Made by a program: the position numbers and the translations under genes. From positions 1 to 50,700 of the forward strand of contig JASHOM010000071.1 in assembly GCA_030041115.1 (NCBI GenBank): 50,700 nt of DNA. The letters are read 5' to 3'. Positions 10,714 through 31,361 of this stretch are shown piece by piece (position 1 is the stretch's first letter; each line of letters opens with the position of its first letter). This DNA is from Vulcanimicrobiota bacterium. Lineage in GTDB: Bacteria > Vulcanimicrobiota > Vulcanimicrobiia > Vulcanimicrobiales > Vulcanimicrobiaceae. The notes beneath the pieces are model-generated. The model was not told where the DNA came from. It was given only the letters and a program-made list of their open reading frames with translations, and searched no databases.

Positions 10714-12849
10714 TCACATCCAAATGACGATGGCAAGCGCGACGACGAGCGTCCCGAGCGCATATCCGACGTACGCGGGAAGCCGCCCGTGGTGCATGCG
10801 AGCTAAAAAGGAGGCGAACCTCCGGACGGCCTGGGCAACCGGCTCGGCGAGAACGCGGTCGGCAGAGAACACGTCTTCACGCCGGCGGCGGATCGCGGAG
10901 CGAAAATGCTCGTAGATCGTTTCGCGGTCGTTCTCGACCTCCGTCGGATTGAAGATCGCATTGAAGATCACGCGTACGGGATTCGAGAATCCGGTGGCCG
11001 TGTAGGTCATCTCGGGAAGTAACGACCGCAGGCCGCCGGCCCAGACGCGCGACCGGTCGATGGCGCGCCGGCGGGTCACCAGCGCTACCACGCCATACGT
11101 CACCCCCAGCAACGCGATGATGATGAACGTCAAATAGGTCGTCGACATGGCGAAGACGACCGGGTTGGCGCTTCCGCCGCGCAGCATTGCGACCCAACCG
11201 CGACCGGGCAATCCCATTCCGATTTGCGCGCCCAGCGCATGAAACGTCGCCACGAAATCCGGGGGAAGCGGATTCGGCGGCGCCGCCGGCCTGAAGAACT
11301 GGGGTATGAGGGCGGTCACGATCGTCCCCGACCCGAAGAAATCGGCCGCCGCGCGCCCGATGACGGGCAGCACGTACGTCGGCAGAACTCCGAGCCCGAT
11401 GCATTCGAGCGCGAGCAGCGCCATGCCCAGGCGCATCGTGCTCGGCGCCTCCCCGACTCGCGGCAGCGGCGTGCGCGCCTTTCCCAAGAACGTCATGCCG
11501 AAGGCTTTGACGAAGCAGGTCACGGCAAGCGCCGCCGTCAACGCGAGGATCGCGCCGCAGAGCGCGAAGACTATCCGCAGCCCCAGCGGAGAGAGCTCGA
11601 CCGCGCGCAGCAACGCCTGGAAGGTCAACCACTCGCTGACGAATCCGTTGAGCGGCGGAATGGCCGCAATGGCCAGCACGCCGACGAAAAAGAACGCCGT
11701 CGTCGCCGGCAAAATGCGAATCAATCCTCCGAGGCGATTCATCGAGCGGCCGCCCAACCTTGCGTCGAGCGTCGCGGCGCCGAGAAAGAGCAGTCCCTTG
11801 TACGCCGAGTGATTGGCGACGTGATAGATGCCGGCCGCAAAGCCAAGCGCCGCAAAGACGCTCTGATGCGCGGCCGTGAAGACGAAGGCCACTCCGAGAG
11901 CGGTAACCGCGATGCCCAGGTTCTCGACCGAGCTGTACGCCAGCATCACCTTGAGGTCGTCCTCGATCGTCGCGTAGAGAATTCCGATCAAGGCCGACGC
12001 CGCGCCGATCGCAAGCACGACGATCCCCTCGCCGGCGAACCGCACCGGAACCAACTCGACGTTGACCAGAACGATGCCGTACACGCCGAGATTGAGGATC
12101 ACGCCCGAGAGCAGCGCCGAGACGTTGCCGGGCGCCACCGGATGGGCGCGGGGCAGCCACGAGTTGACCGGCAGCAAGCCGGCCTTTACGCCGAAGCCGA
12201 AGAACGAAAGCATGAAGATCGTCCATGCCGCCACGGCCGAAAGGCCGCCCGCCGGCACGCCGAAGAGCAGCGAGCCGGATCCCGCTCGCGCAAGGAGCAT
12301 CGCGGCCATTGCGGCGATCGTTCCGGCTTCGCTCATCGCGAGCATGATGAACGCGGCTCGAACGTTGCGTTCCCTTCGCCATTCGTAGGCAACCAGCGCG
12401 GCGCTTGCGATCGCGACGACCTCCCATACGATGAAGAACGAAACGATGTCGCGGCAGATGAAGATCGCGATGATCGCGGCGAGCAGCACGCAGTACCAGG
12501 AGCTGAATGCGCGCAGCGAATACTCGTGCCGGTAGCGATCGAGATAGCGCAGCGAGTAGATGGACGTGGGGATGTAGACGAACGCCGCGACGCAGGCAAA
12601 AAGCGCGCCCAACGGCGTGGTGCCGACCGCAATCGGCCCAAGCACCGGAAACGACCAGAGCAAACGATCGCCGCTCGCGCCGCCCAGCAAGACCGCGCCG
12701 CCCGCAACGAGCGCGAGCGTGGCCGCAATGCAGCTCGCGACCAGCAACAGCGCCGGTGCGCGCCGCTCCGGCAGGACGAGCGCTACCACCGCACCGGCCA
12801 GCGCTACCGCAACCGCGATGCCGGTGAGCAGCAGAGGGAGCTGATTCAT
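10714..12849 (-). CDS. Ehr1: NuoL/HyfB-like antiporter-type membrane subunit
   Basis: Many TM helices; IVWEVVAIASAALVAYEW, GFGVKAGLLPVNSWLPRAHPVAPGNVSALLSGV, ANHSAYKGLLFLGA. ATG 12849 overlaps upstream gene. Confidence 0.85.
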   Translation of the reverse strand: MNQLPLLLTGIAVAVALAGAVVALVLPERRAPALLLVASCIAATLALVAGGAVLLGGASGDRLLWSFPVLGPIAVGTTPLGALFACVAAFVYIPTSIYSLRYLDRYRHEYSLRAFSSWYCVLLAAIIAIFICRDIVSFFIVWEVVAIASAALVAYEWRRERNVRAAFIMLAMSEAGTIAAMAAMLLARAGSGSLLFGVPAGGLSAVAAWTIFMLSFFGFGVKAGLLPVNSWLPRAHPVAPGNVSALLSGVILNLGVYGIVLVNVELVPVRFAGEGIVVLAIGAASALIGILYATIEDDLKVMLAYSSVENLGIAVTALGVAFVFTAAHQSVFAALGFAAGIYHVANHSAYKGLLFLGAATLDARLGGRSMNRLGGLIRILPATTAFFFVGVLAIAAIPPLNGFVSEWLTFQALLRAVELSPLGLRIVFALCGAILALTAALAVTCFVKAFGMTFLGKARTPLPRVGEAPSTMRLGMALLALECIGLGVLPTYVLPVIGRAAADFFGSGTIVTALIPQFFRPAAPPNPLPPDFVATFHALGAQIGMGLPGRGWVAMLRGGSANPVVFAMSTTYLTFIIIALLGVTYGVVALVTRRRAIDRSRVWAGGLRSLLPEMTYTATGFSNPVRVIFNAIFNPTEVENDRETIYEHFRSAIRRRREDVFSADRVLAEPVAQAVRRFASFLARMHHGRLPAYVGYALGTLVVALAIVIWM

Positions 12850-13541
12850 GCCGGCGGTTCCTGGCCGCAGAGCGCGCGCAGCGCGCCGATGATCGCCAAC
12901 GGCGGCGGCGGGCATCCGGGCACGGTCAAGTCGACCGGCACCGCATCGGCGGCGCCGCCGGCGGACATGACGGACGGCCCGAAAATGCCGCCGCTGGCGG
13001 CGCAGGCGCCGACGGCAAGCACGCGCTTGGGCGACGGCATCGCCTCGTACGCGACCTTGAGCGGGCCGGCCATCTGCCGAGTGACCGGACCGACGACCAA
13101 AAGAACGTCGGCCTGACGAGGCGTCGGCGTGATGAAGATGCCGAAACGATGGAGATTGTACGAGGGTCCGGTCAGCTGTGCCAGCTCGTTCAAACACGAT
13201 CCGCAGTCGCCGGCGTCGATGATGCGAACGTGAATCGAATGCTTGAAGCGCGAGCCGAATCGTTCGACGGCGTCCGGATGCGCCCAGCGGACGTCATGGC
13301 GCCACTCCTGCGCCGATTTACAGCGCATGCAATCGACGCATCGATCCGGCTGGACGCCGACGACTCGGTCCTGAGCTTCGAGCGCGCCGGTCGGACAGCG
13401 CGCGGCGATCTCCGCGGCCTGCGCCGGCGTCGAAAACTCCGTGGCGCGCGGCAAACCCGGGGACAAGCTCTCCGGCAGCGCCTCGGGCGCGGGGCCTTCG
13501 GTCAAGACGCCGGCGCGCAGACCGCGCCAGAACCAGCTCAT
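12846..13541 (-). CDS. Ehr1: NuoB/HyfI-like small subunit with ferredoxin-like N-terminal segment
   Basis: MSWFWRGL...CPTGAL...CVDCMRC...DAGDCGSCLNE...VGACAASGGIF...VPGCPPPP: all four NuoB-type cluster cysteines retained. Confidence 0.85.
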   Translation of the reverse strand: MSWFWRGLRAGVLTEGPAPEALPESLSPGLPRATEFSTPAQAAEIAARCPTGALEAQDRVVGVQPDRCVDCMRCKSAQEWRHDVRWAHPDAVERFGSRFKHSIHVRIIDAGDCGSCLNELAQLTGPSYNLHRFGIFITPTPRQADVLLVVGPVTRQMAGPLKVAYEAMPSPKRVLAVGACAASGGIFGPSVMSAGGAADAVPVDLTVPGCPPPPLAIIGALRALCGQEPPA

Positions 13542-15097
13542 CGGTCGTTCTCCGCGACCGAAAGATCGAGCGTCGCCAGGACGATCGGGAAATCTTGAAA
13601 GGCGAAACTCTCCGTGGCAACGTGAAACCCGTGCCAATTCCGGAAGGACGGCGGCGTCAATCGATAGCGGCTTACGGTACCGTCCGCCTCGAGCTCGACC
13701 CATGCAAGCGAAGCTCCGCGCGGCGCCTCGCTCCAGCCCAGCCCGCGACCGGCACGCATCGCCGCGTCGATTCGCGTGCCGTCCGCGGGCAGATCGCGAC
13801 AGAGCGCGGCCATGATCCGCACCGACTCTTCCATCTCCGCAAACAGCACGCGTAAGCGGGCGTAGCCGTCGCCTTCCTCTTCGATCGGTACGTTGAACTC
13901 CAGACCGGAGTACGGAGCGTACGGCTGAACGGCGCGCATGTCGGCGGAGATCGCGGCCGCGCGGGCAAAGGGGCCGACCAGCTCGAAGGTTTGCGCGGCC
14001 TCGCGGTCGACGATGCCCACGCGTTCGATGCGGTCCAGAAAGCTGCTCGATCTTTCCAATGCGCCGCGCAGCGCGTCGACCTTCGGCCGCAGCGCGTCGG
14101 CTTTGCGCAGACACGCCTCCAACGCCGGATCGGCAAAGTCGCGCTGCAAGCCGCCGATCGCGAGCACGCCGAACAAATAGCGATGTCCGCAAAGCTCGCC
14201 GGAAATCCGCAGGAACTGCTCTTCCAGCCACAGCGCTTGGCTGGCCGCGACGGACAGCGACGTCGATTCGCAGATTTCACGGATCGACGTCATGTGATGG
14301 CGCAAGCGCTCGAGCTCGGCGAAAAATCCACGCAGCGCCTCGGACCGCCGCGTCAGCGTCGCACCGAGGGCGCGCTCGACGGCGCGGCAATACGCGAGTC
14401 CGTTGCCGATTGCGCTGGTTCCGGCACAACGCTCGGCGAGCAAGAGCGCGTCCGCGGCGGTGCGGCCCTGCGCGATCTTTTCGATCGCGCGATATTTGTA
14501 GAAAAGCCGCGGCGTCGCCCGGACCACGTCTTCGCCGACCGTCTCGAGGAGGAAGAGCGCCGATTCGGCTCCGCCGGAATAGACCGGACCGACCGGCATG
14601 ACGAACGCGCCTTCTTCTTCCAGAACGCGCTTGGGCCGCCATTCGCGCCGCTGCACCGGAAGATCCTCGCCGCTTTGAACGAACGGTCGCATCAAACCGG
14701 CGTTTTCGGCCCATTGATCGTCGTGCAAGACGAAATCTCCCAGGCGGGGATGCTGGGCAAAGCGGACCGAGAACAGATCCTCGATCTCGCGTTCGAACCA
14801 ATCGGCCGCAATCGTCACCGGGGTGAGGCTCGCAATCGTCCGGTCCACGGGATTGAGCGCGATGATCAGCTGCGCCCAACCCGGATGCGCGGTCGCGTAG
14901 AAGCAATAGCGCAGCTCGAGCTCGTGACGACCTTCCGTTGCGACGATCGTGCCCAGCCTCCAGCGTTGCGCGCTAAAATACTTCGCGACCGCCCGCAAGT
15001 CCTCACGCGGCAGTACGGCAACGATCGATCCGTCGTCGACGCGCCACTCGATCGACGGCCAAATGGAACGCAGGACGTTCAAGACGTCGCTCAGCAT
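13538..15097 (-). CDS. Ehr1: NuoCD/HyfG-like large subunit without [NiFe] ligands
   Basis: NuoC-like N-terminus (DWFEREIEDLFSVRFAQHP), then NuoD/HycE-like region; L1 position reads ERCAGTSAIGNGLAYCRAVE, C-terminus LATLDLSVAENDR has no CxxC. Confidence 0.85.
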   Translation of the reverse strand: MLSDVLNVLRSIWPSIEWRVDDGSIVAVLPREDLRAVAKYFSAQRWRLGTIVATEGRHELELRYCFYATAHPGWAQLIIALNPVDRTIASLTPVTIAADWFEREIEDLFSVRFAQHPRLGDFVLHDDQWAENAGLMRPFVQSGEDLPVQRREWRPKRVLEEEGAFVMPVGPVYSGGAESALFLLETVGEDVVRATPRLFYKYRAIEKIAQGRTAADALLLAERCAGTSAIGNGLAYCRAVERALGATLTRRSEALRGFFAELERLRHHMTSIREICESTSLSVAASQALWLEEQFLRISGELCGHRYLFGVLAIGGLQRDFADPALEACLRKADALRPKVDALRGALERSSSFLDRIERVGIVDREAAQTFELVGPFARAAAISADMRAVQPYAPYSGLEFNVPIEEEGDGYARLRVLFAEMEESVRIMAALCRDLPADGTRIDAAMRAGRGLGWSEAPRGASLAWVELEADGTVSRYRLTPPSFRNWHGFHVATESFAFQDFPIVLATLDLSVAENDR

Positions 15098-15099
15098 GC

Positions 15100-16524
15100 C
15101 TACGTACCCAAGACGCGCGCGGCGCTTTGCAGCACCGCGCCCAAGCCGCTGGGCATCCAAACGCCGAGCACGACGACCGGGATCGCTCCCAGAGCCAAGG
15201 CCCACAGACATGGCGCGGGCAACCGGATTCGTCCAGCCTCCGGCTCGCCGCCCACCATGTTCGTCACGTGACGGAGCAATCCGAAAAATGCCAGCACGAT
15301 GAAGACCGCAAGCAGCGCGATCGCGAGATAGAGATGCGCCAGGATTCCCGATTGGAGGATCGCCAGCTCGCTGAGAAAGACCGCGAACGGAGGCGCCCCG
15401 CCGATTGCGAGCGCACCGAGCAACAGGGCGGCCGCGGCCGCGCGGCTCGTTCCCAGCAAGCCTCGCACCCGGGCGATCTCGCGCGTTTCCGTGGCCATGA
15501 GCGCCGCGCCGGCCGCATAGAAACAGAACGATTTCGTAACGGCGTGCGCGAGCAACTGCCAGATGACGGCAACGTCGGCCGCCGGCGTGAAGATGCCCGC
15601 CGCCGCAATCACGATCCCCATGTGCTCGATGGTCGAAAACGCAAAGAGACGCTTGTAGTCGTGCGTTTGCACGATCAGAAATGCGGCGGTTCCGACCGAG
15701 AGCAGCCCGGCAACGAGAAACCAGGAACCGACGTGCAGCGCCGCGTCGCCTGCGAAGACGTCGCGCAGCCGGAGCAGCACGTAAAGAACCACGCTCGTTT
15801 CGATTCCGGAGAGCATGGCGCAAACGGGCGAGGGAGCTTGGCTGTGCGCGTCCGGCAGCCAGGTGTGCAGCGGCACGAGCCCGATCTTCGCTCCGTAGCC
15901 GACGAGCAGCAGCGCGAAGGCAACGCCCAGCAGCGCGTGCGGCATCCGGGCGGACGCTTCGCGCAGCCCGGTCCACGTGAAGTCGGTGCTTCCCGTGACG
16001 TGCAGTGCCCAGAAGAGCAACAGCACGCCCAATACGGCGATCGTCGCTCCCAGCAGCGTCAGCACCATGTACTTCCACGCCGCCTCGAGCGCTTCCACGC
16101 TCAACGCGTAGCTGACGAGCAGCACCGAGAGCAGCGTCGTCAGCTCGACGAAGATCCAGACGACGCCGATCTCGCTCAAGAGCGGGATGCACAGCATCGA
16201 GAACGCAAAGAAATTGAAATTCGCGTAATAGAGCCGGATGCGCTCGCCCGGCTCGCCTTTGAGATATCCCCACGAAAAGAGCGAAGCGGTCAGGTAAACG
16301 AGCGCGATCAACGCAAGGAAGAACGCCGCCAGCGAGTCGAGGCTGACCCAGTTGCGGACGAACACGATCGTGCCGCCGGCGCGTAGCGCGGTCAGCGGGA
16401 TCAGCGAAAATCCAAAGGTCAGCACCGAAGCGACGAACGTCACCCACGGCGCGGCCCGGTCGCTTCGTGGAACGGCACACCACAGCGCGGCGACCAGCGC
16501 GAGCAGCGGGGTGAACGCGATCAT
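15100..16524 (-). CDS. Ehr1: NuoN/HyfF-like antiporter-type membrane subunit
   Basis: VELTTLLSVLLVSYALSVEALEAAWKY; YGAKIGLVPLHTWLPDAHSQAPSPVCAMLSG; ATG 16524 in ATGA overlap with the upstream gene. Confidence 0.87.
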   Translation of the reverse strand: MIAFTPLLALVAALWCAVPRSDRAAPWVTFVASVLTFGFSLIPLTALRAGGTIVFVRNWVSLDSLAAFFLALIALVYLTASLFSWGYLKGEPGERIRLYYANFNFFAFSMLCIPLLSEIGVVWIFVELTTLLSVLLVSYALSVEALEAAWKYMVLTLLGATIAVLGVLLLFWALHVTGSTDFTWTGLREASARMPHALLGVAFALLLVGYGAKIGLVPLHTWLPDAHSQAPSPVCAMLSGIETSVVLYVLLRLRDVFAGDAALHVGSWFLVAGLLSVGTAAFLIVQTHDYKRLFAFSTIEHMGIVIAAAGIFTPAADVAVIWQLLAHAVTKSFCFYAAGAALMATETREIARVRGLLGTSRAAAAALLLGALAIGGAPPFAVFLSELAILQSGILAHLYLAIALLAVFIVLAFFGLLRHVTNMVGGEPEAGRIRLPAPCLWALALGAIPVVVLGVWMPSGLGAVLQSAARVLGT

Positions 16525-17189
16525 CGGATCCACTCCCGCAACGCCGCGAGGCCGCCCACTTCGGTCGTGCCGATGCGGCGATAGGCGGTTCGCGCGAGCA
16601 ATGCAACGATGAACGCGAGCAGCGGCACGTCGAACGCGATCGCGAGTTCGGCAATCAGAGGAAAGTCGGGCGCAACGGCGATTCCGGCGAGAAACGCCGC
16701 GTTCTCCATCGCGAGAATCCCGAGCAGCTGCGGCACGGCCTCCACGCGAACCGCAAGCAGAAACAGACCGACCAACAGACCGGCGACGCCCATCGCGAGG
16801 TTCCCCGCGGAGAGACTCGGCGCCGCGTGGATCAGCGGCTGCGCGAAGGCGTAGCCCACCAGCGTCAGCCCGAGCGAGATCAGCAGCGCGGCGGGGACGT
16901 CGATCGTCTGAGCGAGCTCGCGCCGTTGATTGATCTCACCCGGAACGAGCGCCCGGATCACCCACGGTATGATCACCACCTTGCTGAGCACCGTCACGCA
17001 CCCGAGCGCGACCAAGTGCCACGAAAGCGGCGAGGCACCCAGCAGAAAGGCCGATGCCGCCAGCAGCAGGGATTGCACGATGAACAACTGCATGCACGCG
17101 CCGATCTGACGCGTAACCGTCATTGCGATCGTCGCAATGATGAACAGGCCCAAGACCAGCGCGTTGAGCTCGACGATGATTCCGTTCAC
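16521..17189 (-). CDS. Ehr1: HyfE-like membrane subunit
   Basis: Hydrophobic ~222 aa protein; GTG 17189 (GTGA overlap); position in C-E-F-CD-I-B order; AMENAAFLAGI resembles the conserved LEN/MEN motif of NuoK/HyfE-type subunits. Confidence 0.8.
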   Translation of the reverse strand: MNGIIVELNALVLGLFIIATIAMTVTRQIGACMQLFIVQSLLLAASAFLLGASPLSWHLVALGCVTVLSKVVIIPWVIRALVPGEINQRRELAQTIDVPAALLISLGLTLVGYAFAQPLIHAAPSLSAGNLAMGVAGLLVGLFLLAVRVEAVPQLLGILAMENAAFLAGIAVAPDFPLIAELAIAFDVPLLAFIVALLARTAYRRIGTTEVGGLAALREWIR

Positions 17190-18136
17190 AGCCGCAGGAG
17201 CTCCGTTACCATCGCCGTCACCGAAACCACGAAGGCGGCGCCGAGAAACTCCGAGATTCGGAAGAGCCTCAGCTTCGCATACGACGACTCCACGACGACC
17301 ACGGCGACCACGAGCGCTACGATCTTGAGCGACACGGCTGCCGCGGCGCCGACGATCGCCACGATGCTCCCAGTGCTCGCCAACCCCCACGGTGTCGTGA
17401 GCACGTTGAGAAAGATGATCGCGAGCACCGTGAACTTCATGTAGCCGCCGTACTTCACCAGCGCGGCGGAGCGGCCGGAGAGCTCCAACGCCTTCGATTC
17501 GTCGATCATCGCGAGTTCGAAGTGCCCGCTGGGATTGTCGACCGGGATGCGCCCGGTTTCCGCTAAGATGATCATGAAAAAGGCGATCAGCAGCAGGATG
17601 TGAGACGGCGCGAAAAAGTTGGCGATCGGATGAACCCAGTGCTGCTGCACGATATACGGGATCGTCGAGTTCGCGATGAAGGAAACGGTAAAGAGCACGA
17701 CGATGATGACCGGCTCGGCGAGAAAGCCGACCATGCGCGTGCGGCTGGCTCCCATCGCGCCGTACGGATTGCCGGCATCGATCGCCGCCAGCGTAAAGAA
17801 GAGCCCGGACACGGCGAAAATGAAGCCGGCGGCCAGCATGTCTCCGGCGAAGGCGAGAAAGAGCGGGAAATCGGTCAATACCGGAATCAGCAGCGTGATG
17901 ATCAACGGCACGATGAAAATCAGATAGGGCGCCGTGCGGAAAAGCCAACTGCTCTCGGCCGATATTCGTTCGTCCTTGCCGAACAGCTTGCGAAGGTCCC
18001 GATACGGCTGAAAGATGCTCGGACCGCGCTTCGATTGGACGATCTCTTTGAGGCGCGCCAAGATGCCCGCAAAAAGCGGTGAAAGCAGCAGCACGAACGC
18101 AAGCTGCGCTAAATTGAGAGCGATGGACTCGGCCAT
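17186..18136 (-). CDS. Ehr1: NuoH/HyfC-like membrane subunit
   Basis: ARLKEIVQSKRGPSIFQPYRDLRKLFGKD; ILAETGRIPVDNPSGHFELAMIDE. ATG 18136 chosen because the upstream in-frame sequence (MELASAQAG...) is the riboswitch. Confidence 0.87.
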   Translation of the reverse strand: MAESIALNLAQLAFVLLLSPLFAGILARLKEIVQSKRGPSIFQPYRDLRKLFGKDERISAESSWLFRTAPYLIFIVPLIITLLIPVLTDFPLFLAFAGDMLAAGFIFAVSGLFFTLAAIDAGNPYGAMGASRTRMVGFLAEPVIIVVLFTVSFIANSTIPYIVQQHWVHPIANFFAPSHILLLIAFFMIILAETGRIPVDNPSGHFELAMIDESKALELSGRSAALVKYGGYMKFTVLAIIFLNVLTTPWGLASTGSIVAIVGAAAAVSLKIVALVVAVVVVESSYAKLRLFRISEFLGAAFVVSVTAMVTELLRL

Positions 18137-18171
18137 TGTATCGAGAGAGTTTCTCCTAGCGAGCGCCGTCG

Positions 18172-18219
18172 ACCTAGGAGCCATCATCCCTGCCTGGGCG
18201 CTCGCGAGCTCCATCGCGT
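18172..18219 (-). promoter_or_regulatory. fluoride riboswitch (crcB motif), copy A, upstream of Ehr1 operon
   Basis: Minus strand CGCGATGGAGCTCGCGAGCGCCCAGGCAGGGATGATGGCTCCTAG: P1 CGCG/CGCG, pseudoknot GGAGC/GCTCC, P3 CCC/GGG followed by ATGATGGC. Confidence 0.82.
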
Positions 18220-18229
18220 GTGATCAGGT

Positions 18230-19003
18230 GTGAGTATACAGAATCCGCCGCTATGCGGGCAAGAAGGAATAGCCGCCCGTAGGGAAGGATTAGCGCCATC
18301 CGGTGTCAACGGTCCGAGCGTGCCGCACAACGTTGGGGACTTTGCGAAGACAATCGACGTGCTCACGCACGATCTTCCCGGATCCGCACGAAGCCTTCTG
18401 GCGCACGCTCCCGATTCGGCAAACGTAACCGCTGACGTAACGGCATGCCTTCTCGGTCGCGATCTTTGGTATCCGCAATTAGCGGCCTTTCGCGATTGGC
18501 TGCTCGAAAGCGGCGAGCGGCCGCACTTGTGGACTTTCGATTTTTGTCCGTCCGGCGCGTGGAACTCCGCGCCTTGGAATGCCCTGTCGCTGCCGGCGCG
18601 AATCTTGCGAGCGCGAGCCGGCGCGGTGGATCGCGAAGTGCAGGGGCACGTGTCGCCGGTGAGCCTCGCGATGAAGCGCCGCGAATTCGAAGCCGGGCTC
18701 GCCGAGCTGGAGCGAGCCGGAGGCTACGGCGCGGATGCGCGAAGGTTTGCAGCGGTCGCCGCGCACGCCGATTTGCGGACCGACCTCTCGTTGATCGAAA
18801 TTCTGTCGCACTGGCTGGCCATGCTGAAGCACCGCGAAAAAGTGCTTGCGGACCGGCACGCCACCGGCTTTGAAGTGCACGGGTATCGCGAGGCGTGCTC
18901 CGCGTGCAAGACGCGTTGGGGCATTCGGCCGTTCGAGCCTCGATGGGCTCCGCCGTTCCACCCGGGATGCCGTTGCTTCTCACAACCACGATTCACGAAC
19001 TAG
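18230..19003 (+). CDS. hypothetical protein with C-terminal CxxC...HPGCRC motif (start uncertain)
   Basis: 257-aa ORF ending YREACSACKTRWGIRPFEPRWAPPFHPGCRCFSQPRFTN, divergent from Ehr1. Confidence 0.6.
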   Translation: MSIQNPPLCGQEGIAARREGLAPSGVNGPSVPHNVGDFAKTIDVLTHDLPGSARSLLAHAPDSANVTADVTACLLGRDLWYPQLAAFRDWLLESGERPHLWTFDFCPSGAWNSAPWNALSLPARILRARAGAVDREVQGHVSPVSLAMKRREFEAGLAELERAGGYGADARRFAAVAAHADLRTDLSLIEILSHWLAMLKHREKVLADRHATGFEVHGYREACSACKTRWGIRPFEPRWAPPFHPGCRCFSQPRFTN

Positions 19004-26562: not shown

Positions 26563-26606
26563 CTTCACGAATGCTCCGACAAAAGCGGTTGCTTTGTCAG
26601 GAGCCA
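26563..26606 (-). promoter_or_regulatory. putative expression-platform hairpin of copy C
   Basis: Minus strand GCTCC-TGACAAAGC-AACC-GCTTTTGTC-GGAGC; its 5' arm is the aptamer pseudoknot strand. Confidence 0.6.
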
Positions 26607-26663
26607 TTGGCCTTTGCAGCAGTTTGCGCTGCCGAAAGCAGCTCCGGCGGACTCCTCCGCCGC
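26597..26663 (-). promoter_or_regulatory. divergent fluoride riboswitch (crcB motif), copy C, upstream of Ehr2 operon
   Basis: Minus strand GGCGGAGGAGTCCGCC ... AAAGGCCAATGGCTCCTG: P1 GGCGG/CCGCC, AGGAG/CTCCT pseudoknot; extra internal hairpin GCTGC-TTTCG-GCAGC; P3 not canonical. Confidence 0.6.
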
Positions 26664-26706
26664 TATTGCCTTTCGAGTGCTTTGCGAGCGATACCTTTGC
26701 AATCCG

Positions 26707-27009
26707 TCAACGTTTCGATCGCCGCGACCTCATTCCAAATCCAAGCATCAAGGACGCCATCGCCAACGCAAGCGGAACTTCTGCGATCAGGATAAAGCGC
26801 AGCAGCATCGCGTCGTGGCGTAAGGCTGCGCCGAATGCGATCCCGAGCAACATGAGGCCAAACGTGGAAATCGCTCGAACGGTAAGACGTCCGGCCGCGC
26901 GACCTCCGTCGAGATGCTTGCAGTCGGGTGCGTCGCACAGCTCCCAGCTATCGGGGCTTCGCAAATGCGGGCGCGGCGGCGTGACGCCGTGCAATGAGTC
27001 CTGCTTCAT
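26707..27009 (-). CDS. small membrane protein (~2 TM) preceded by fluoride riboswitch copy D
   Basis: SD GGAGGAATC-ATG; AISTFGLMLLGIAFGAAL and LLRFILIAEVPLALAMASLMLGFGMRSRR hydrophobic segments; not CrcB-like by eye. Confidence 0.7.
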   Translation of the reverse strand: MKQDSLHGVTPPRPHLRSPDSWELCDAPDCKHLDGGRAAGRLTVRAISTFGLMLLGIAFGAALRHDAMLLRFILIAEVPLALAMASLMLGFGMRSRRSKR

Positions 27010-27020
27010 GATTCCTCCAC

Positions 27021-27073
27021 GCAGGAGCCATCAGCCGCAGCCTGCGACCAATCACGGCGAGCCCCATCGCCCG
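27021..27073 (-). promoter_or_regulatory. fluoride riboswitch (crcB motif), copy D
   Basis: Minus strand GGGCGATGGGGCTCGCCGTGATTGGTCGCAGGCTGCGGCTGATGGCTCCTGCG: P1 GGCG/CGCC, pseudoknot GGGGC/GCTCC, P3 GTCGC/GCGGC. Confidence 0.87.
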
Positions 27074-27169
27074 ATCGGTCGCACTTCGCACAAGGTTGAG
27101 CGGGTCCTCTACGTAACGCCGCTTCGACGAACAGGTTTGCGCGATATCGACGCAAATATAAAGGACCGT

Positions 27170-27222
27170 ACGGCGATGGAGCTCGCCCGCGAGCGTCGCA
27201 AACCGGCGACTAACGGCTCCTG
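27170..27222 (+). promoter_or_regulatory. fluoride riboswitch (crcB motif), copy E, upstream of MutS-like pair
   Basis: CGGCGATGGAGCTCGCCCGCGAGCGTCGCAAACCGGCGACTAACGGCTCCTGG: P1 GGCG/CGCC, P3 GTCGC/GCGAC, pseudoknot GGAGC/GCTCC. Confidence 0.85.
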
Positions 27223-27241
27223 GATTACGGGGACACCATCG

Positions 27242-28771: not shown

Positions 28772-30294
28772 CGCTCAAGGCGCACCTGATGTACGCCGAC
28801 CGCGATTTTTCATTTCGCAGCGTCGTGCCGATCACCGAGGGCGAGGTCGCTGCGGATCTCGAGCGAGATGCGCTCGTCTCGGCGATGGCCGCCGGCGATC
28901 CCGTCGTTGCGGAAGTCGCGACCGAGGCGCTCTGGAACGGCCTGACCGATTTGGCCGCGATCCGGTACCGTCAAGCTGCGCTCGGCGACGCCGTCGCGAA
29001 TTCCGCCGCGGTTCGAGAGCTGTACGAACTTGCCGTCGAGGCGCTCGAAGCCGAACGCCGCGCGTTTCTGCTCGGGCTCGTCGGGCGAACGCCGGGCTCG
29101 GTACTCTTCCGGGCGGTGGAGCTGCTCGAATTATTGGAGGAGCGGCTGCGCCGGCTACGGGCCTTCGCCGACAAAAATGCGGCCCGGTTCGGGTCGGTTG
29201 CCTTCACCAATTTGTTCGACATGCTCCGGCGCGAGCTCGGCGACGATTACCTGGGAATCGTTCGAGAGCACTTGGGAGACTTGCGATTTACCGACGGCGT
29301 GTTGTCGAGCGCGCGCTTGGGTCCCGGCAACAAGGGAGTGGACTACGAGCTTCACCGCATCGTCCAGTCGGAGGGCTGGCTTCGCCGCGCGTTTGGGGCC
29401 CGCGGGCAGCAGGCGTATTCGTTTAGGATTCCGGATCAGGACGAGGGCGGCGCGCGCGCGCTGGCAGCCCTCAAGGATCGAGGAATAGCGCGCGTCGCCG
29501 ACGCGCTCGCGCGCTCGATGGATCACATCCTGTCGTTCTTCAAGATGCTCAGGACGGAGCTCGCCTTCTACGTCGGATGCCTCAACATCCGCGAAGCGCT
29601 CGCCGCGGCGGGCGCACCGGCCTGCACGCCTACGCCGTGCTCCGCGGCCGACGCAAAGCGCAACGCCACCGGACTCTACGATCCGTCGCTGGCGCTGACC
29701 CTGGGACGCTCCGTCGTGCGAAACGATCTCGCGGCCGACGGTAAGGCGCTCGTGCTCGTCACCGGAGCAAATCGCGGCGGGAAATCGACGTTTTTGCGCA
29801 GCCTCGGGCTTGCCCAGCTAATGATGCAGTGCGGAATGTTCGTCGCGGCCGAACGCTTCGAGGCCAGCGTCTGCCGGGGAGTCTTCACGCACTACAAACG
29901 TCAGGAAGACCCGACGATGCAAAGCGGTAAATTCGACGAAGAGCTCGTTCGAATGAGCGCGATCGTCGATGCCGTGGTGCCGGGTTCGCTCGTGCTCCTC
30001 AACGAGTCCTTCGCCGCGACCGACGAACGCGAAGGCGCGGAGATCGCTCATCAGGTCGTCACCGGGCTGATCGATTGCGGCGTCATCGCGTGCTTCGTAA
30101 CGCATCAGTACGAACTAGCCGAACGCTTCATGACCGAGGGCCGCACGGACGTCCTCTTCCTGTTGGCCGAGCGGCGAGACGACGGATCGCGCACGTTCCG
30201 AATCAAACCCGGACGCCCGCTGGAGACGAGCTACGGCAAAGACATTTACGATCGCATCTTCGACGACGCCGGCGCGACGACGGTCCCGCCCTGA
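28768..30294 (+). CDS. MutS-like ATPase, second of pair
   Basis: ATGA overlap with the first; Walker A GANRGGKSTFLRSLGLAQLMMQCGMFV, Walker B GSLVLLNESFAATDEREGAEI, CFVTHQYELA. Confidence 0.88.
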   Translation: MTLKAHLMYADRDFSFRSVVPITEGEVAADLERDALVSAMAAGDPVVAEVATEALWNGLTDLAAIRYRQAALGDAVANSAAVRELYELAVEALEAERRAFLLGLVGRTPGSVLFRAVELLELLEERLRRLRAFADKNAARFGSVAFTNLFDMLRRELGDDYLGIVREHLGDLRFTDGVLSSARLGPGNKGVDYELHRIVQSEGWLRRAFGARGQQAYSFRIPDQDEGGARALAALKDRGIARVADALARSMDHILSFFKMLRTELAFYVGCLNIREALAAAGAPACTPTPCSAADAKRNATGLYDPSLALTLGRSVVRNDLAADGKALVLVTGANRGGKSTFLRSLGLAQLMMQCGMFVAAERFEASVCRGVFTHYKRQEDPTMQSGKFDEELVRMSAIVDAVVPGSLVLLNESFAATDEREGAEIAHQVVTGLIDCGVIACFVTHQYELAERFMTEGRTDVLFLLAERRDDGSRTFRIKPGRPLETSYGKDIYDRIFDDAGATTVPP

Positions 30295-30908
30295 CTTCGT
30301 CCGATCGCAGCGGCCCGGCGTACCGCGATCGAGGTCCGCGCAAGACTGACCGCGCCGCGACCGATCAAGCTGCGCATCGCGCGCTCGACGTGCTCCACCA
30401 GCGCCGAGCGCAAGCGCTGCTCGAGCTCGGCGATCCATCCGTCGATCTCCGCAAAGGAGCAGGCCGCGTCCGGAAGGATCTCCCGCTCGTCGTCCACCTC
30501 TATCCGCGGCAACGCAATTCTTCGCGGCGGGCGGGGCGGCTTCGCGAGATCGCCGGCTCCTTGCGCGGCGGCTCGGACGAAGCGCTCCTGCGCTGCGAGC
30601 AAGGCTTCCGCATAGAATCCAAAGCGCGCCCGGAACCGCACGCCGGCATTTTCGAACGCCATCTGAGCGCAACGCATGGCCACCAGCTCCGAATGGCTGC
30701 GGGTCAGAGCCGCGCTCAAGTCCGGAGCGAGCGTGCCCAGCGAGAGGAAATGGTCCGCGAGCTCTTCGCGCGCCCGCCGCACGGGCTTCGCAACGAAACG
30801 ATCGAGCGTCGAAAGATCGGTTCGACAGCCGGACTCGAGCACCACGCGCGCCGCGGCTTCATCGTCGCGAAGGATCTGCCAGGCGGCGTTGACACGGTCA
30901 GCCGTCAT
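30246..30908 (-). CDS. helical hypothetical protein, second gene under riboswitch copy B
   Basis: 220 aa; ATG 30908 overlaps the upstream gene end by 11 nt; convergent with MutS-like 2 (49-nt overlap). Confidence 0.65.
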   Translation of the reverse strand: MTADRVNAAWQILRDDEAAARVVLESGCRTDLSTLDRFVAKPVRRAREELADHFLSLGTLAPDLSAALTRSHSELVAMRCAQMAFENAGVRFRARFGFYAEALLAAQERFVRAAAQGAGDLAKPPRPPRRIALPRIEVDDEREILPDAACSFAEIDGWIAELEQRLRSALVEHVERAMRSLIGRGAVSLARTSIAVRRAAAIGRSQGGTVVAPASSKMRS

Positions 30909-31230
30909 CGAGAACGATCGCCGCGTCGTCGAAGAACAGGTCCTCTACGGTTTCGTGCTGACGCAAGCGAGTTTTGAGCTCGGCAATTCGCGCTTGCAGC
31001 TCCTTGGCCCGGCCCAAAATGACCTCGCGGCCGGCAAAGGCGCCCGCGTTGCGCATGCGCTCCGTTTTGAGCTTGCGCATCGATTCCTGGAGCTCGAAAT
31101 GCTCGCTGGCATAATGGCGCTCGATTTCGTAAAGCCTGCCGCTGCGCTCTTGGAGTTTCTCGTTCGCCCACTGCAGCCGAGCCTCGAGATCTCGGCAACG
31201 CTCCTGCAGTTCGGCGACTTGATCGGCCAC
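30898..31230 (-). CDS. coiled-coil protein, first gene under riboswitch copy B
   Basis: GTG 31230; MADQVAELQERCRDLEARLQWANEKLQERSGRLYEIERHYASEHFELQESMRKLK heptad-rich. Confidence 0.65.
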   Translation of the reverse strand: MADQVAELQERCRDLEARLQWANEKLQERSGRLYEIERHYASEHFELQESMRKLKTERMRNAGAFAGREVILGRAKELQARIAELKTRLRQHETVEDLFFDDAAIVLDDG

Positions 31231-31248
31231 GACCTAACCTCACTCTCG

Positions 31249-31299
31249 TTGAGGAGCCATCAGCCTTTTTGGCGCTTGTTCGGCGAGCTCCATCGCCCT
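31249..31299 (-). promoter_or_regulatory. fluoride riboswitch (crcB motif), copy B, upstream of coiled-coil pair
   Basis: Minus strand AGGGCGATGGAGCTCGCCGAACAAGCGCCAAAAAGGCTGATGGCTCCTCAA: P1 GGCG/CGCC, P3 GCC-AAAAA-GGC, pseudoknot GGAGC/GCTCC; very close to the canonical aptamer. Confidence 0.9.
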
Positions 31300-31361
31300 C
31301 GGAAACGTTGCTTCGCGGAGGAATAGAGAACGATCCTGCGAATTTCGTTCGTGTTAGTTTA

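Follow-up and report, generated by a model that had tools for sequence, protein, structure and literature searches.

A candidate gene for a lineage-specific two-helix membrane protein, behind a predicted fluoride riboswitch and beside a hydrogenase-like operon, in a Vulcanimicrobiota genome

The genome of a Vulcanimicrobiota bacterium carries, within the 50,700-nt stretch analysed here (contig JASHOM010000071.1; hereafter the window, G000:C148), a 100-codon reading frame, orf100, for which sequence analysis finds a fluoride riboswitch, a Shine-Dalgarno (SD) sequence, two hydrophobic segments and a riboswitch-Ehr1 neighbourhood, and which belongs to no known family. The reading we favour, at a probability of about 0.4, is that orf100 encodes a lineage-specific, fluoride-induced accessory or adaptor protein, which serves either the Ehr1 complex or the membrane when the cell is stressed by fluoride. 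The product probably assists a hydrogenase-like membrane complex and is probably not a new exporter, and we regard the gene as an orphan addition to an already known fluoride-riboswitch regulon. A first-pass annotation of this DNA had drawn attention to the small protein; the surrounding regulon and the genome's apparent lack of known exporters lay outside its finding.

Six fluoride riboswitches lie in the window between 18 and 31.5 kb, and a seventh is found elsewhere in the genome, on contig C132. The features of the locus are as follows.

10714-18136 (-): Ehr2 operon, a second hyf-like set, by sequence without Ni-Fe ligands and with the N2-type cysteines kept
18168-18227 (-): fluoride riboswitch of the Ehr2 operon, 26.2 bits
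19447-26533 (-): Ehr1 operon with hyfC, E, F, G, I and B-like genes, by sequence without Ni-Fe ligands
26591-26670 (-): second fluoride riboswitch, between orf100 and hyfC1, 20.5 bits and weak taken alone; a riboswitch stands upstream of 13 of 13 hyfC1-type operons
26707-27009 (-): orf100, two-helix protein of 100 aa, ATG start
26914-26937 (-): codons for CDAPDCKH (residues 25-32), a possible metal-binding C-x4-C-x-H
27014-27027 (-): 3' pseudoknot strand of the aptamer, CTCC (27027-27024), a 5-nt loop and the complementary GGAG of the SD; a like arrangement recurs over the regulon
27015-27080 (-): fluoride riboswitch aptamer (RF01734) of orf100
27163-27229 (+): divergent fluoride riboswitch of the MutS-like pair, 22.9 bits
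27242-30294 (+): two MutS-like ATPases, MutS domain V only, from profile matches
30246-31230 (-): orf110 (coiled-coil-like) and orf220, regulon genes
31244-31306 (-): fluoride riboswitch of orf110 and orf220, 39.4 bits
31355-31453 (+): fluoride riboswitch of the NUDIX and dynamin-like genes, 28.6 bits
31476-33634 (+): NUDIX hydrolase and dynamin-like GTPase

The aptamer of orf100 scores 32.2 bits against RF01734 (E 3.9e-6 in a 5.2-kb search, 4.6e-7 over the whole genome), just below the curated gathering threshold of 34 bits, and a search at the default threshold therefore reported only the 31244-31306 copy. The aptamer can form P1 (GGCG/CGCC), a 6-bp P2 (GGUCGC/GCGGCU) and a pseudoknot (GGGGCU/GGCUCC, with G.U pairs), and all three, together with the conserved core, are present in the covariance-model alignment. 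The P1 and pseudoknot pairs covary across 46 family copies of the aptamer, and its GGGGC loop variant is common to many relatives. From its fold and conservation we take it to be a fluoride riboswitch, with fluoride binding as the predicted property. The first-pass annotation had described a canonical fluoride riboswitch directly upstream of the gene; the RF01734 fold and the E-value bear this out, although the score falls short of the threshold and the switch is not a lone one but one of six.

The SD, GGAGG, occupies positions 27018-27014, 4 nt upstream of the ATG at 27009. No other riboswitch-proximal ATG of the window has an SD of 5 bases, and the earlier description of the gene as having the best SD/aptamer geometry in the window is a fair one. 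The distance from aptamer to start is 13 nt, within the range of the regulon (median 31 nt). The candidate SD-masking helix in this leader (CUCC/GGAG) has only 4 bp, and free-energy folding of the leader was ambiguous, with the switch not clearly seen. Over 81 riboswitches the 3' strand of the aptamer (CUCCU...) can pair with downstream sequence over a mean of 6.5 bp, compared with 3.7 in shuffled sequence, and the downstream partner often carries the SD. Inverted repeats of up to 11 bp between this strand and the downstream SD were also seen, for example at L045 5989(+) and L046 7825(+). A scan for promoters and terminators was empty. Across the regulon there is an apparent translational ON switch acting through SD masking. 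Fluoride entering the cell would bind the orf100 aptamer, the pseudoknot would capture the CUCC strand that could otherwise pair with GGAG of the ribosome-binding site, and the freed SD would turn on translation of orf100.

The translated product is MKQDSLHGVTPPRPHLRSPDSWELCDAPDCKHLDGGRAAGRLTVRAISTFGLMLLGIAFGAALRHDAMLLRFILIAEVPLALAMASLMLGFGMRSRRSKR (100 aa). Its hydropathy maxima fall at residues ~44-62 (1.7) and ~72-90 (2.1), and the segment C25-D-A-P-D-C30-K-H32 (in its wider form LCDAPDCKH) lies N-terminal to helix 1, which confirms the two-helix protein with a CDAPDC motif originally described. The C-terminus is basic, which suggests that both ends are cytoplasmic; the protein would then cross the membrane with two helices, and the short CDAPDCKH tail may bind metal. 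A structure prediction, one of the checks first proposed, gave a poor AlphaFold model (mean pLDDT 61, pTM 0.25), with which Foldseek found no match.

The product was rightly said not to look like the four-helix CrcB/Fluc. Both are small membrane proteins, and CrcB/Fluc is commonly found behind fluoride riboswitches, but orf100 has two helices rather than four and gives no match to PF02537 (Pfam, E 0.1). To our knowledge the cysteine motif is no part of the Fluc signature. The CLC-F antiporter (PF00654) resembles orf100 in being a case of riboswitch-controlled fluoride resistance, and differs from it entirely in size and fold.

Searches of Pfam, NCBIfam, PHROGs, PADLOC and PDB sequences returned no match to orf100, and hence no homology to an unrelated known family that would speak against the first description. 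No clear homologue was found in 149 genomes of the phylum, either with the single sequence or with a two-row profile, and none in a contig collection from 85k genomes, viral contigs, plasmids or phages. Weak matches in G067, G047, G063 and G026 were rejected on reading as chance frames.

The nearest candidate relative is a 58-aa protein with one helix, MPSRRPHLTDKGTLCDQDWPCVHARYELETRLVGALGDIATGAFVALTAAILVFALGK, encoded in a genome of another genus (G044). Its gene has its own riboswitch (31.5 bits) and lies, in convergent orientation, at the 3' end of an Ehr1 operon. The two proteins have RPHL..LCD..C.H in common, the G044 form of the motif being LCDQDWPCVH. Their similarity reaches a BLAST E of 0.006 (for one comparison), a shuffle p of 0.0018 and rank 6 among 5,468 ORFs; the value of 1e-23 in the two-row profile search arises because the G044 protein is part of that profile. 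Since both setting and motif are shared, we count this marginal likeness as suggestive, though not as proof of homology. A further 103-aa hydrophobic protein, in G001 (L046 6620-6928(+)), is preceded by a fluoride riboswitch of its own, lies two genes before Ehr1 and has no Pfam match. We weighed it as a possible relative and rejected it, since it lacks the motif and its alignment was forced. A protein with a similar motif thus stands beside Ehr1 in only one of the 12 other Ehr1 genomes. The scans made found no comparable small gene at 10 of 13 Ehr1 operons; orf100 is therefore not a core subunit.

The evidence that orf100 is coding is moderate. Its frame scores +9.9 in a codon model and is the top frame of the region, where competing frames are mostly negative and the sole large same-strand competitor is antisense to a MutS gene. 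The score exceeds that of 94% of wrong-frame 100-codon segments and is below that of 99% of main-gene segments of the window, in a model trained on the very main genes with which orf100 was compared. With this window-trained model low scores are also given to true regulon genes elsewhere, such as a metallophosphatase in G044 (6.7 over 244 codons) and a Usp gene in G050 (7.7 over 142 codons).

It might be argued from the low codon score, the lack of a clear homologue and the second riboswitch before hyfC1 that orf100 is not a gene, both riboswitches acting in tandem on Ehr1 and the 100-codon frame being a chance or decaying remnant. We consider this unlikely. A GGAGG-ATG stands exactly behind the aptamer, the frame is the best of its region and outscores most wrong-frame segments, the encoded protein has two clear hydrophobic stretches and a basic terminus, and a protein with a similar motif occurs in the same setting in G044; the codon score itself is matched by low values in some true regulon genes of relatives, though the model is trained on the window.

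The Ehr1 operon next to orf100 encodes hydrogenase-4/complex-I-like subunits, as expected of an Ehr complex. Operons of this hyfC1 type occur in 13 of 99 family genomes (relatives' loci L043, L046, L047, L050, L052, L061, L067, L068, L083, L086 and L089), and a fluoride riboswitch precedes every one of the 13, immediately in 11 cases and with orf110 in between in two. No CxxC Ni-Fe motif was found in HyfG1, HyfG2 or 22 homologous large-subunit ORFs; DRVCGIC of HycE aligns to EHVSGAT in the Ehr large subunit. At the four N2-type cysteine positions of the Ehr1 NuoB-like subunit, three never hold a cysteine among 14 rows and the fourth retains it in five, whereas Ehr2 keeps four of four in 10 of 10 rows, the rows of this alignment including some overlapping loci of one genome. 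With the Ni-Fe ligands and most N2-type cysteines gone, Ehr1 looks like an ion pump minus its usual redox sites; we regard it as a hydrogenase-like, probably ion-moving membrane complex that has lost the hydrogenase site.

Ehr complexes in the literature are also without Ni-Fe ligands and their function is unknown (PMC10284858). The operons described here share with them hydrogenase-4-like subunits that lack the CxxC Ni-Fe ligands, and differ from them in being preceded by fluoride riboswitches and in the loss of most N2-type cysteines from the Ehr1 small subunit; orf100 is no known Ehr subunit.

Ehr1 is found in one of 18 genomes of the same genus, G000 itself, and is missing from the other 17. 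In one of these, G015, a 227-aa gene is all that separates the riboswitch of the MutS pair from that of Ehr2. The interval from the 227-aa gene to the MutS riboswitch is about 8 kb longer in the window than in G015, the extra DNA comprising a riboswitch, orf100, a riboswitch and Ehr1. As orf100 and Ehr1 share this extra segment, we infer that they arrived together. The 227-aa protein (ACLLGRDLW... motif) is encoded beside the cluster in the window (18320-19003(+)) and at L049 17823-18494(-) and L070 9674(+). In G076 and G083 fluoride riboswitches are immediately followed by genes for similar-looking proteins, of which the G076 copy has no Pfam match.

A pattern for the aptamer core matches 20 of 149 phylum genomes and, read backwards as a control, none of the 149; RF01734 itself has matches in 54 of 99 family genomes, often clustered. 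The regulon across this Eremiobacterota family includes the two Ehr operons, the MutS-like pair, NUDIX, dynamin-like and coiled-coil genes. DUF190, Na/H exchanger, metallophosphatase, Usp and HAD genes are further found behind fluoride riboswitches in relatives. In many family genomes orf110 and orf220, neither of which has a clear Pfam assignment, again follow fluoride riboswitches. That fluoride riboswitches control mutS and genes for formate hydrogen lyase has been published (Weinberg 2010, PMC2864571; PMC11139923). Measured against that RF01734 (crcB motif) regulon, the aptamer here is the same, and the MutS pair and hyf-like operons fit the published targets; the differences are that orf100 is in no family searched and that six switches are packed into one 13-kb stretch of a genome in which neither crcB nor a CLC gene is found.

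Neither CrcB (PF02537, searched to E 1) nor CLC (PF00654) was matched in the genome, and because its completeness is 95.15% the absence of these exporters is likely, not certain. Both searches were positive in most control genomes. CrcB occurs in 51 of 99 family genomes and CLC, of any type, fluoride or other, in 35 of 99; eight of the 13 Ehr1 genomes are without CrcB. Other genomes of the family, G079 and G067 among them, have fluoride riboswitches and lack both exporters as well as orf100. Genes of the Na/H-exchanger type stand behind fluoride riboswitches at L072 (PF00999), L076, L077, L081 and L082, and since some of their host genomes are without CrcB and CLC, they are candidate fluoride or proton antiporters.

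The proposal that orf100 is a fluoride-resistance or membrane-adaptor protein fares differently in its two parts. A role in general resistance is disfavoured, as the protein has no clear homologue in a phylum where riboswitches and CrcB are each found in about half of the family genomes, whereas a role as an adaptor of Ehr1 fits the context better. We therefore prefer, from gene context, a model in which orf100 serves the Ehr1 complex, or the membrane, as an accessory or adaptor in fluoride and acid stress.

The cysteine motif allows another reading, in which orf100 is a fluoride-induced metal- or redox-sensing membrane protein unrelated to Ehr1, which might for example handle divalent metals disturbed by fluoride or regulate another transporter. 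CDAPDCKH stands just N-terminal to helix 1 and CDQDWPCVH is found in the G044 protein; fluoride disturbs divalent metals, and operons with fluoride exporters are enriched in divalent cation transporters (PMC11139923). The motif is shared by two sequences only, of marginal similarity, and orf100 matches no known metal-site profile, so that this reading appears doubtful.

That orf100 is itself a fluoride channel or transporter, an oligomerising two-helix protein that exports fluoride in place of CrcB and CLC-F, would suit its own riboswitch, the strongest SD in the window, its two membrane helices and a genome in which working searches show neither exporter, but is very improbable given the want of a clear homologue in the phylum and of a Fluc profile match, the family genomes that have riboswitches yet neither exporters nor orf100, the other transport candidates of the regulon (the Ehr complexes here, the Na/H-exchanger-family gene in relatives) and an assembly in which a known exporter may be missed.

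A bolder reading takes orf100 and the G044 protein as the first members of a new family: very small membrane proteins, induced by fluoride and bearing a cytoplasmic C-x4/5-C-x-H site, which would work with a redox-depleted hydrogenase-like complex and keep fluoride or acid out of CrcB-less bacteria; we hold this to be a long shot.

Fluoride riboswitches mark genes that a cell requires when fluoride is present. Such switches were linked to 'formate hydrogen lyase' and mutS genes as early as 2010, with the rationale not settled. Within this locus, orf100 would be the simplest single gene to put to the test, but the Ehr1 operon is the better bet; the apparent lack of exporters and the twofold loss of redox sites in Ehr1 are more interesting leads than orf100 itself. 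How such a bacterium survives fluoride becomes a testable question at this locus, which brings together six switches, two Ehr complexes that lack the hydrogenase site, a pair of MutS-like genes and a membrane protein of no known family, in a genome where neither CrcB nor CLC is found.
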